Positions 27,108-36,381 of a stretch of DNA of 64,000 nucleotides are shown one piece after another. How positions within the stretch are numbered: the stretch's first letter is position 1; each line of letters starts with the position of its first letter. Made by a program: the position numbers and the translations under genes. The DNA comes from Actinomycetota bacterium (GTDB lineage Bacteria; Actinomycetota; Actinomycetes; S36-B12; UBA5976), in NCBI GenBank assembly GCA_009923495.1, contig RFTJ01000003.1, positions 65,236 to 129,235 on the forward strand. Direction: 5' to 3'. A model generated the notes under the pieces. That model was given only the letters and a program-made list of their open reading frames with translations. It had not been told where the DNA came from and ran no database searches.

Positions 27108-28601
<1,494 letters not shown>

Positions 28602-28660: not shown

Positions 28661-29602
28661 TTAGTGTCCAGATGACTGGGCAAGAGCAATTAAGGTTTCC
28701 GCCAGACTTGGGGTATTGATTACATCGCCGGGTAGGTCGGTTCCCCAGCCAGGCCCGACCGCAAGTTTCAATGGAACTGGTCGTTGTGGGTCAATGGCTT
28801 GCCAGATACTTAGGTCCGCAGTTCCCATGGATTGAGACCAAATCACTACAGCACTTGGACCTAATTTACGACAAGCTGAGGCAAGTGCGTCAGCTGGCAT
28901 TCGGCCACCCAAAATTCGACTTGCAATTTGATGCTCGGCCAAGGCTGCGCCGACTGCATAAAGTGGCAATGTGTGCAGTTCGTGTGGTGCTGCCGCAAGC
29001 AAGACTGGACGAGCATTCACCGGCTGATCTATTGACAGTGAGAGGCTTTGCAACTCGTTAACAACAACTTCGGAGAGCATGTGCTCAATTTCAATACCTT
29101 CACCGGTATTCGCCCAACGCTCACCGAATGCCACCAACACTGGCACTAGAACTTTGTCCCAAGTCCAGAGCACACCTTTGTCTTCAAGCAGTTTTGCAAT
29201 AAGCGCTTGGCATGCCGAGGCATCCAACATTCCTGCTGCTCGTGTTAATCCGCGACAGGCATTCTTTGGACTATATAGGTCAACAACTCCCTCAGCAGAT
29301 TCATCTTCGGTGACTAAGCGCAATCTAGGTCCCGTTCTTGGCAAGGAACTTAAATCAGAATTCTTAGCTACGCGAGCTGCTTCAGCTGGCATCACGCCAT
29401 CCATAACTAAGCGACGCATAATTTCGAGCCGAGCGATGTCCTCTGCGCTGTAGCGACGATGTTTGCCTGGCACGTGTTGACTTGGCCCCATCCCGTATCG
29501 TCGATCCCAGGTGCGCAAGGTATCGGGAGCTACACCAATCCGTCTTGCCACAGCTGCCACAGTTAGGCCGGCTTCTGGGCTTGGATTTGGCGGGTTTTCC
29601 AT
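28661..29602 (-). CDS. MerR-family regulator with B12-binding-like domain (CarH/LitR-like)
   Basis: 313 residues. The N-terminal winged helix (about 12-80) is MerR-like: LTVAAVARRIGVAPDTLRTWDRR and the wing KHRRYSAEDIARLE. The rest resembles the helical-bundle plus Rossmann cobalamin module of CarH: W163 followed after nine residues by E173-H174 (the W-x9-EH pattern that contacts adenosylcobalamin) and E208-L-H210 (ExH; His would be the lower cobalt ligand). The Gly of the usual ExHxxG is Pro213 here, so B12 binding is plausible, not certain. It is divergent from whiB and upstream of the gua operon. Known relatives are light-released repressors of carotenoid genes. Confidence 0.75.
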   Translation of the reverse strand: MENPPNPSPEAGLTVAAVARRIGVAPDTLRTWDRRYGMGPSQHVPGKHRRYSAEDIARLEIMRRLVMDGVMPAEAARVAKNSDLSSLPRTGPRLRLVTEDESAEGVVDLYSPKNACRGLTRAAGMLDASACQALIAKLLEDKGVLWTWDKVLVPVLVAFGERWANTGEGIEIEHMLSEVVVNELQSLSLSIDQPVNARPVLLAAAPHELHTLPLYAVGAALAEHQIASRILGGRMPADALASACRKLGPSAVVIWSQSMGTADLSIWQAIDPQRPVPLKLAVGPGWGTDLPGDVINTPSLAETLIALAQSSGH

Positions 29603-29650: not shown

Positions 29651-29695
29651 TGATGGGTTTTTGGCCGACTCGGGTGAACAACTTTGGCAAAATGC

Positions 29696-29725
29696 TTGAC
29701 CAACCTATGAACCGATTTGTAGATT
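29696..29725 (+). promoter_or_regulatory. Probable whiB promoter
   Basis: TTGACC at 29696-29701 and TAGATT at 29720-29725 with an 18-base spacer, followed about 48 bases later by the whiB ATG. The same two hexamers form the groES promoter in this window, which supports both calls. Confidence 0.6.
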
Positions 29726-29773: not shown

Positions 29774-30070
29774 ATGGCGGATCTAACTCGACTACCTGGC
29801 CCAAACGCAGATTTTTGGGACTGGCAACTAGACGCCCTTTGTCGCGGACTTGATTCTGCGGTCTTTTATCATCCCGATGGCGAACGCGGTCAAGCCCGTG
29901 AACGTCGCGTAGCCAATGCAAAAGCGGTTTGTGCCGCCTGTCCGGTTGCTCGACAGTGCCTAGAACACGCTCTTAATGTGCGTGAACCGTATGGCGTCTG
30001 GGGTGGGCTAAGCGAGGAAGAGCGCGAAATTCTTTATCGTCGCCTTGATCGCACCGTAAAAATTAGCTAA
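29774..30070 (+). CDS. whiB: WhiB-family iron-sulfur transcriptional regulator (WhiD/WhiB3-like)
   Basis: 98-residue redox/NO-sensitive regulator restricted to actinobacteria; it binds a 4Fe-4S cluster and partners the principal sigma factor. Cluster cysteines are C23, C53, C56 and C62 (CAACPVARQC spacing), followed by the GVWGGLS turn and a basic C-terminus (YRRLDRT). AGGA lies eight bases before the ATG. In Streptomyces and Mycobacterium the WhiD/WhiB3 gene lies between groEL and guaB, as here, so I place it in that clade by synteny. It ends before a bidirectional terminator shared with groEL. Confidence 0.95.
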   Translation: MADLTRLPGPNADFWDWQLDALCRGLDSAVFYHPDGERGQARERRVANAKAVCAACPVARQCLEHALNVREPYGVWGGLSEEEREILYRRLDRTVKIS

Positions 30071-35017: not shown

Positions 35018-35623
35018 GTGGATAAACCGATTTGGCTAAGGAACCATCAATTGTCTGTATCAAGCGATCCAAATCTCAATCTGATAGTTCCCCGAATAGC
35101 TTTAGACCTAATCACAATTTCCTATCTGCTTTTCGGTCTCTTTTATCGAGTTAATCGTCGAGGCGATTTGGTCTTAGTTTATCTCGCGTGCAACATTGGC
35201 TTATTTTCTGTTCTGACAGTTCTATCCTTTAGCCCGCTTTCCACGGCGGTTGGTTTTGCGCTATTCGGCGTACTTTCGATTATCCGCTTACGCAGCTTTG
35301 AATACACTCACGAACAAATCGCCTACTTTTTCATATCCTTGTCAATCGCCCTGATTTGTGCGATAGACCTATCATCATTGGCTCTGCCGTCATTACTTGT
35401 TGGCATGCTGGTGATTGTTATGACTTTGGTTGAATCCAAATTCTTTAGAAATCGCACAGACACCTTAGATCTAACAATTGATCAGGTCATTGTCGACCAT
35501 GACGAATTAAAGCAGCATGTCGGTGAGATTTTGAATGCTCCCGTCATAAGTTGCAAAGTAAAGGTCATGAATGTTTTACAAGATACGATGACATTGCAGG
35601 TCACGTATCGGACAACCAAATGA
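35018..35623 (+). CDS. DUF4956-family membrane protein
   Basis: 201 residues. Four hydrophobic segments (about 22-45, 50-68, 72-90 and 100-140) are followed by a soluble C-terminal domain (about 145-200, ferredoxin-like by size, LKQHVGEILN...KVKVMNVLQDTM). The FALFGVLSIIRLRSFEYTHE segment with its conserved Arg is the DUF4956 signature. Function unknown; the family is regularly found beside VTC/polyphosphate-polymerase-like proteins, as here (ATGA overlap with the next gene). The GTG start has no ribosome site; a TTG at 35051 preceded by AAGGA is an alternative. Confidence 0.8.
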   Translation: MDKPIWLRNHQLSVSSDPNLNLIVPRIALDLITISYLLFGLFYRVNRRGDLVLVYLACNIGLFSVLTVLSFSPLSTAVGFALFGVLSIIRLRSFEYTHEQIAYFFISLSIALICAIDLSSLALPSLLVGMLVIVMTLVESKFFRNRTDTLDLTIDQVIVDHDELKQHVGEILNAPVISCKVKVMNVLQDTMTLQVTYRTTK

Positions 35624-36381
35624 GTGTTCTAGTCGAAGCCGCACTAGATTTTCAGCCGACGACTCTGGAGTCTATTGACCAAAGTTGGCTTGGCCAACGA
35701 AGATTCGATCGAAAATTTTTATTAACAACCCGGCAACTGCAGGATTTTTTTGTCGACAAAACTGAGGATTTTGCCATTTTGGAAATAACTGGTTCAACTG
35801 ACTTTGCTTACCAAACGGATTACTTTGATAACCCACACTTTGACTGTTATTTAGACCATGCCCAGGGCAAGCAACGAAGAGCAAAGATCAGATTTCGCCG
35901 TTACCTTGATTCAGGACATTCGCGACTAGAAGTCAAACTTCGACAGGGAAATCTGCAGTCAAGGAAAATTGCATTAGAAGACTCGTCAAATTATGGTGCG
36001 CAAGAAGTGCTATTTGTCGAAGATGTACTTACTGAATTTCTTCCAACTTCAAGGCTCGCACAGACAGTTTCATCTTTAACCTGCAGTGCAATTAACACTT
36101 ACTCTCGGTCAACTTTGGTGTATAAAAATCAAGCAGAGCGAATAACATTAGATAGTAACTTGAAAATTGTCATGGGCCAGGAGCAATTTCAACTTCAACC
36201 TGACTTGGTACTAGTCGAAGTAAAGTCGATGAAACGGAATGCAGTTACGGTTCGGAGTTTGATTCAGGCAGGGCATCGACCAGTTAGTTTCAGTAAATAC
36301 TGCGTTGGCTTAGATTTAGTCGCATCCGAACGACCACGAGTGCATACCCGAAAGTTCATTGCCAGCAACTTCCTCAGTTAA
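35620..36381 (+). CDS. VTC-domain (polyphosphate polymerase-like) protein
   Basis: 253 residues from the ATG at 35620 that overlaps the DUF4956 stop; the longer frame from 35551 is not needed. CYTH-like tunnel residues are visible: GQRRFDRKFLLT near 25-36, YFDNPHFDCYLDH and RRAKIRFRRY near 67-95, LEVKLRQ near 103, ERITLDSNLKI, LVEVKS near 203 and SFSKYCVG. In yeast Vtc4 this fold polymerises ATP into polyphosphate in a membrane-coupled complex; the DUF4956 partner could supply the channel. Polymerase activity is inferred. The stop meets the lamin-tail gene's stop with no gap. Confidence 0.82.
   Translation: MSVLVEAALDFQPTTLESIDQSWLGQRRFDRKFLLTTRQLQDFFVDKTEDFAILEITGSTDFAYQTDYFDNPHFDCYLDHAQGKQRRAKIRFRRYLDSGHSRLEVKLRQGNLQSRKIALEDSSNYGAQEVLFVEDVLTEFLPTSRLAQTVSSLTCSAINTYSRSTLVYKNQAERITLDSNLKIVMGQEQFQLQPDLVLVEVKSMKRNAVTVRSLIQAGHRPVSFSKYCVGLDLVASERPRVHTRKFIASNFLS

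Follow-up and report, generated by a model that had tools for sequence, protein, structure and literature searches.

The window, by which we mean the whole 64,000-nucleotide stretch of DNA analysed here, encodes a genuine and conserved LitR/CarH-type MerR regulator facing a whiB gene, and a CarH-style operator in the whiB promoter, conserved in 92 of 93 loci, is new here. The sequences moderately favour a reading in which this LitR-type, CarH-related factor is dedicated to the divergent whiB3/whiD-type gene, acting as a corrinoid-bound repressor that would be released by light or by a lack of adenosylcobalamin (AdoCbl). No description of this regulator at whiB was found in the literature searched, which included few subscription papers.

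The regulator and its predicted pocket

The features discussed below are listed in Table 1. An earlier note on this DNA had proposed a CarH-like photoreceptor, and the open reading frame, its strand, and residues W163, E173-H174, E208/H210 and P213 are all as given there. The protein has an N-terminal MerR DNA-binding domain and a two-part C-terminal B12-binding domain, as in the broad LitR/CarH family of class I (AdoB12 type), a layout recovered by Pfam, by the structural model and by Foldseek. Pfam matches are to MerR_1 (2.6e-14) and B12-binding_2 (5.5e-6, above the cut-off), together with a weak match to the Rossmann-type B12-binding domain (0.0026, below the cut-off). The best full-length NCBIfam model is the CarH equivalog NF052513 (2.2e-21), with a score of 76.3 bits that does not reach the curated cut-off of 400 bits. 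A PDB search with the family profile returns Thermus thermophilus CarH as its first match (2.9e-30). The AlphaFold2 model, built from an alignment of 71 orthologs, has a pLDDT of 91.6, and its best Foldseek matches are all CarH chains (E 1.1e-16), with a TM-score of 0.83-0.84 (by target length) and an rmsd of 2.6 for the isolated CarH cobalamin domain. Whole-chain rmsd values are large (9-17), as expected where a flexible linker joins the two domains. The comparison with CarH that the earlier note had suggested therefore yields a CarH-like predicted fold and pocket, and both the profile and Foldseek rank CarH first among PDB relatives.

Table 1. Features of the merR-whiB region, in window coordinates (domain limits in residues).
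Feature	Coordinates	Strand	Basis or remark
LitR/CarH-type MerR regulator (merR), 313 aa	28661..29602	-	Pfam, profile, model
Regulator domains			DNA-binding ~12-81; linker ~82-111; four-helix bundle 112-188; Rossmann-type 200-310
R30-T-W-D-R-R-Y36 codons	29495..29515	-	CarH/CarA-type recognition-helix motif RxW(E/D)RRY
W163-x9-E173-H174 codons	29081..29116	-	Adenosyl-group cap in CarH
E208-L-H210-T-L-P213 codons	28964..28981	-	Lower-axial-ligand motif D/ExHx2G/P
W255 codon	28838..28840	-	Aligns with the dimethylbenzimidazole-contacting Ser of SxT/V in other B12 domains
whiB, WhiB3/WhiD type, proposed target	29774..30070	+	Pfam Whib 1.5e-25
whiB promoter	29696..29725	+	-35 TTGACC 29696-29701; 18-bp spacer; -10-like TAGATT 29720-29725
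Operator core, tandem 11-bp half-sites	29697..29718	+	TGACCAACCTA 29697-29707; TGAACCGATTT 29708-29718
Possible further half-site TGAACAACTTT	29675..29685	+	Predicted; in phase, 22 bp upstream of core
guaB (IMP dehydrogenase)	27108..28601	-	Downstream neighbour, not thought part of the switch

Conservation was counted over 93 non-redundant whiB-linked orthologs. W163 is Trp in 89 of these and Phe in four; E173, H174 and H210 are present in all 93, as is Glu or Asp at position 208; and G160, G232 and P236 are kept in 91, 89 and 92, respectively. The recognition-helix motif, which is that of CarH and CarA (PMC9304148), is near-invariant. Such near-invariance across 93 orthologs excludes chance as the source of the B12-pocket residue pattern, and it is probable that the window protein binds a corrinoid in a B12-type pocket. 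Pro213, which occupies the Gly position of ExHxxG and had been regarded as a departure, proves to be the norm in this family (80/93) and is allowed by the lower-ligand motif as published, D/ExHx2G/P (PMC9304148).

The whiB locus and its promoter

The WhiB protein has M. tuberculosis WhiB3 as its best PDB match (1.6e-37, versus 2.3e-17 for WhiB1), placing it in the WhiB3/WhiD group. As noted earlier, merR faces whiB, with a gap of 171 bp between them, and is followed on its own strand by guaB, guaB3 and guaA. Matches to the regulator are found in 92 of 99 related genomes, most being clear orthologs, and a scan of species genomes yields at least 562 relatives, the best 80 of which come from Nanopelagicales, Frankiales, Pseudonocardia, Actinocrispum, Motilibacter and others. 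Judged by its relatives, the host, with an assembly of 1.45 Mb, is probably a Nanopelagicales-type actinobacterium. The two genes are divergent in all 110 loci examined, including one (L060) where they lie 3.8 kb apart, and the usual neighbours are groEL beyond whiB and, where the contig is long enough, guaB/guaB3 downstream of merR. The merR family is old and syntenic in actinomycetes. In several other related genomes, some of them incomplete, neither merR nor a close whiB ortholog was found.

A regulatory tie to the gua genes was rejected because the merR-guaB adjacency varies among lineages: elsewhere sigma-factor or response-regulator genes stand between the two, namely a SigD-like sigma gene in Actinocrispum and a BldM-like response-regulator gene in one Mycobacteriales metagenome-assembled genome. 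Since the BldM-like and/or SigD-like gene is absent here, the contact between merR and guaB seen in the window appears to have arisen through gene loss. Elsewhere in the window, a gene for a DUF4956 membrane protein overlaps one for a VTC-domain protein (35018-36381, + strand).

Alignment of the whiB-merR gaps reveals a single strong footprint, located in the whiB promoter (29696-29721), which takes in the -35 TTGACC, conserved spacer sequence and a TAnnnT -10. The site, matched in at least 17 of its 25 positions, is present in 92 of the 93 loci compared with 87 of 1860 shuffled gaps, the consensus and the count being drawn from the same loci and the shuffled gaps serving as the control. Across these 92 loci there are 85 matches to a TAnnnT -10 sequence with a spacer of 17 or 18 bp. 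The conserved block is most similar to itself when offset by 11 bp (0.188 per column, the next best offset giving 0.075), and 11 bp is the spacing of CarH half-sites (PMC8156234, PMC9304148). The layout is thus CarH-style: 11-bp direct repeats stand in tandem across the -35 and the spacer. At the place of the possible third half-site, the close relative L002 carries TGCCCAACTTA. Classical MerR activators use stretched spacers of 19-20 bp, and the normal 17-18 bp spacer found here suggests repression rather than MerR-type spacer activation.

An operator dyad put forward previously, GACCAACCTA/TAGATTGGTC, is not conserved as a dyad, and the direct repeat at lag 11 accounts better for the conservation. 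Two operator cores in tandem, about 26 bp apart, are present in the whiB promoters of L082, L092, L099 and related acI-type loci.

The operator is nearly private to the merR-whiB locus. In 395 genomes of the class there are 37 exact matches, 35 of which lie just upstream of merR; the other two are at a contig end beside whiB (G017) and before a fasciclin-domain lipoprotein gene (G161). Only four of the 193 genomes without merR have any match at one mismatch, G017 among them, and in the host genome there is just one match, at whiB, even when up to three mismatches are allowed. A looser pattern gives only scattered matches in the host genome, similar to the reversed control, and hence no regulon. 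The idea that carotenoid or rhodopsin genes might share the operator was not supported, as only the whiB promoter matches in the host genome, and no whiB-type operator was found at the host rhodopsin gene (PF01036, G000:C1:157176-157832). From these sequence patterns, it is very probable that the window regulator acts on whiB, and the role with most support is that it controls this whiB3/whiD gene locally, probably by repression, through a CarH-style operator.

Three f10 genomes have extra sites at an MFS transporter; these overlap with coding sequence and were left out of the count. The G161 site (L205, G161:C96, 2300-2318, - strand), which precedes the fasciclin-domain gene at 1655-2263 on the same strand, is the only exact match clearly away from whiB-merR. 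Fasciclin genes also occur near the LitR-type gene of two other loci, directly beside it in L222 and some 8 kb away in L231.

Signals and competing explanations

From the pocket and the promoter we infer operator binding by the window protein, AdoCbl as its ligand, light as its signal and repression as its sign. In the mechanism we propose, a corrinoid, probably AdoCbl, would be gripped by W163, E173 and H174 of the four-helix bundle on one side and by the Rossmann domain on the other, with H210 as the lower cobalt ligand. The corrinoid-bound regulator would sit on the tandem half-sites and block RNA polymerase, and photolysis of the Co-C bond, or a lack of AdoCbl, would alter its assembly such that repression is released or reversed. 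TtCarH Gly192, which we take to be a dimer-dimer (tetramer) interface residue, aligns with Q225, and Gly160 with D192; because these tetramer-interface glycines are missing, dimers are presumably likelier than tetramers.

A light response is plausible from the family context, and the chances that the window regulator responds to light are about even. Of the published light signature, GxxW, EH, GxxH and GxxxP (PMC11796333), the protein keeps GxxW (G160), EH (E173-H174) and GxxxP (G232/P236) and has HxxH for GxxH, the first Gly of which is kept in only 11 of the 93 orthologs. At the position of CarH His132 the window protein has A164, and 91 of 93 orthologs have one of Glu, Ala, Ser, Gln, Arg and Asn; because this position is almost never His we predict no bis-His light state. 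This bears on the foremost alternative, in which the regulator is B12-dependent without being light-driven, and signals the availability of AdoCbl or a cobamide to whiB with light incidental. The missing His132 equivalent agrees with such a role in that TtCarH H132A binds AdoCbl and photolyses but mostly remains tetrameric, failing to disassemble in light (PMC10442372), and small genomes of this type are likely to rely on outside corrinoids, the host having corrinoid methyltransferase genes. We nevertheless think it unlikely, since CtMerR (with Arg at this position and still an AdoCbl photoreceptor), SasPcob and AbDPcob are all light-responsive without that His, and since relatives in the subfamily lie beside carotenoid and photolyase genes.

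These relatives are members that are not linked to whiB and that have both W255 and the GPGW loop. Three (L218-L220) adjoin genes for a polyprenyl synthase, a phytoene-desaturase-like protein and phytoene synthase (crtE/crtI/crtB), two (L227 and L228) adjoin photolyase genes, and L215 adjoins an ECF sigma gene. A Streptomyces atratus relative, 86.5% identical to L215, is flanked by a sigma gene on one side and a full carotenoid cluster on the other, an arrangement of the crt-litR-litS type. Seven of the eight non-whiB members nest among the whiB-linked ones with moderate support (92/82) in a tree whose outgroup branch is very long and whose root is unsettled. By W255, GPGW, the LitR/CarH pocket and this clustering, the window protein is placed by sequence in the Streptomyces-type LitR subfamily. 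The position of subfamily relatives in carotenoid and photolyase clusters, including an evident Streptomyces LitR, gives independent support to the idea of light or B12 as the signal.

The subfamily is not uniform, because L218, L219 and L220 have His or Gln in place of the Trp cap while keeping EH and the lower-ligand His, and they may differ in ligand or in light chemistry. Upstream of Streptomyces LitR-type genes lie tandem 11-bp TGCGTCGTTTG/TGCGTCGTA repeats (at about 11909-11930 in L229, and upstream of merR in L215), which are a candidate LitR operator.

The host encodes a PduO-type adenosyltransferase (G000:C6:29984). The enzyme was rejected as a marker for merR because it is near-universal, being present in 77 of 78 genomes with or without merR, and so does not discriminate. 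Genes for a corrinoid protein, a methyltransferase and a ferredoxin/activator-type protein lie side by side in the host (L213, 724-4202; G000:C1, about 136.7-140.2 kb) and form a B12-dependent methyl-transfer system. Since the host has an adenosyltransferase, a corrinoid methyltransferase system and a rhodopsin, AdoCbl and light are both plausible inputs. Within the order, rhodopsin is present in 26 of 33 genomes with merR versus one of nine without, a co-occurrence to which we give no weight because related genomes share both. Nor does any of these three host functions separate genomes with merR from those without it once relatedness is taken into account.

Less probable is an arrangement in which the whiB promoter element is read by some other factor, such as WhiB3/WhiD with SigA or another regulator, merR being a mere neighbour. 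At the -35 region, Wbl proteins act together with the principal sigma factor, WhiD-HrdB being an example (PMC7363131), and a few genomes with merR (G045 and G050) have a weak or absent site. This explanation has to contend with the 11-bp repeat, which resembles that of CarH operators, and with the tandem TGCGTCGTTTG/TGCGTCGTA repeats that LitR-type relatives away from whiB carry upstream of their own genes. There is also one case, G046, a near-complete genome in about ten contigs, where whiB and groEL are kept, an unrelated gene replaces merR, and the site is lost together with it.

The pocket might instead take another tetrapyrrole, such as heme in the manner of SCHIC domains, or an unusual cobamide, making the regulator a redox or NO sensor for whiB. 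Compared with the LitR/CarH motif D/ExHx2G/P-x41-SxT/V-x22-27-GG, the window protein keeps ExHx2P and exactly x41, with W255 for the Ser and VG for GG, the latter being kept in 59 of 93 orthologs. W255 is Trp in all 93 whiB-linked orthologs and also in Streptomyces LitR-type proteins, and W286 of the GPGW loop (283-286) is likewise present in 93/93. In SAerR the residue equivalent to W255 is a Thr in contact with dimethylbenzimidazole, and MetH and CarH have Ser or Ala there (PMC9144470). A changed dimethylbenzimidazole site, together with the nature of WhiB3/WhiD as Fe-S redox regulators, is what speaks for this proposal. In the AppA SCHIC domain, however, the Trp cap is lost and the His displaced by two residues (PMC9144470), whereas both are in cobalamin-type places in the window protein, and W255-bearing LitR-type relatives include a published type of B12 sensor; we regard the proposal as quite improbable. 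Least probable of all is a degenerate, ligand-free CarA-like repressor, for although CarA and class II LitR show that B12 dependence can be lost in the family, CarA is without the Trp of Wx9EH, and in the present family strong constraint acts on W, EH and the lower-ligand His.

We therefore return to a LitR-type, corrinoid-dependent repressor of whiB as the preferred explanation. With a LitR-like gene back to back with whiB3/whiD and a CarH-style promoter site, light or B12 may reach a central regulator of stress and development. In actinobacteria, WhiB3/WhiD-type proteins tie development to redox state and NO, and how their genes are turned on is of wide interest. If true, B12 photoreception would reach past genes for pigments and repair and take in a core regulator. 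A regulator with a B12 pocket and a private operator at whiB3/whiD can be tested in culturable Pseudonocardia, Actinocrispum and Motilibacter, and also in the abundant freshwater acI-type bacteria, whose light effects on growth have no known receptor. A bolder view, which we hold only tentatively, is that a LitR-type AdoCbl photoreceptor has stood over whiB3/whiD since the early actinomycetes, conveying light, B12 and oxygen (by cobalt oxidation) to a Wbl Fe-S regulator, and that the carotenoid LitR of Streptomyces is a later branch.

Comparison with characterised systems

Heme-binding SCHIC domains, which have no Trp cap and a lower His shifted by two, differ from the window protein in both respects. 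Myxococcus xanthus CarA and class II LitR are alike in combining a MerR domain with remnants of B12 domains, but either the full Wx9EH or the Rossmann part is missing from them, and the window family keeps both. CtMerR of Chloracidobacterium thermophilum (8jbs) shares a non-His residue at the His132 position, but keeps GxxH, has Ser where the window protein has Trp255, and is encoded at an unrelated locus. T. thermophilus CarH matches in domain order, fold, Wx9EH, ExH, the recognition-helix motif and a tandem 11-bp operator overlapping the -35; it differs in that identity is about 25%, in that the window protein lacks His132 and the tetramer glycines and has Trp255 for the Ser of SxT, and in its target, which is crt rather than whiB.

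The closest characterised kind is Streptomyces LitR. That of S. coelicolor is a coenzyme-B12 MerR photosensor regulating litS, a repressor in the dark and an activator in light, with added B12 strengthening both (PMC12705666). The Streptomyces protein compared here is the MerR of the S. atratus crt cluster, whose equation with S. coelicolor LitR rests on that cluster, and it is 38-39% identical to the window protein over nearly the full length. The two have W163, EH, H210, P213, W255 and GPGW in common, and this sharing of W255 along with the key pocket residues weakens the objection that W255 raises. Unlike the window protein, LitR carries one additional residue within Wx9EH and a Gly at 207, and it lies in a carotenoid cluster opposite litS, an ECF sigma gene, whereas the window protein faces whiB.
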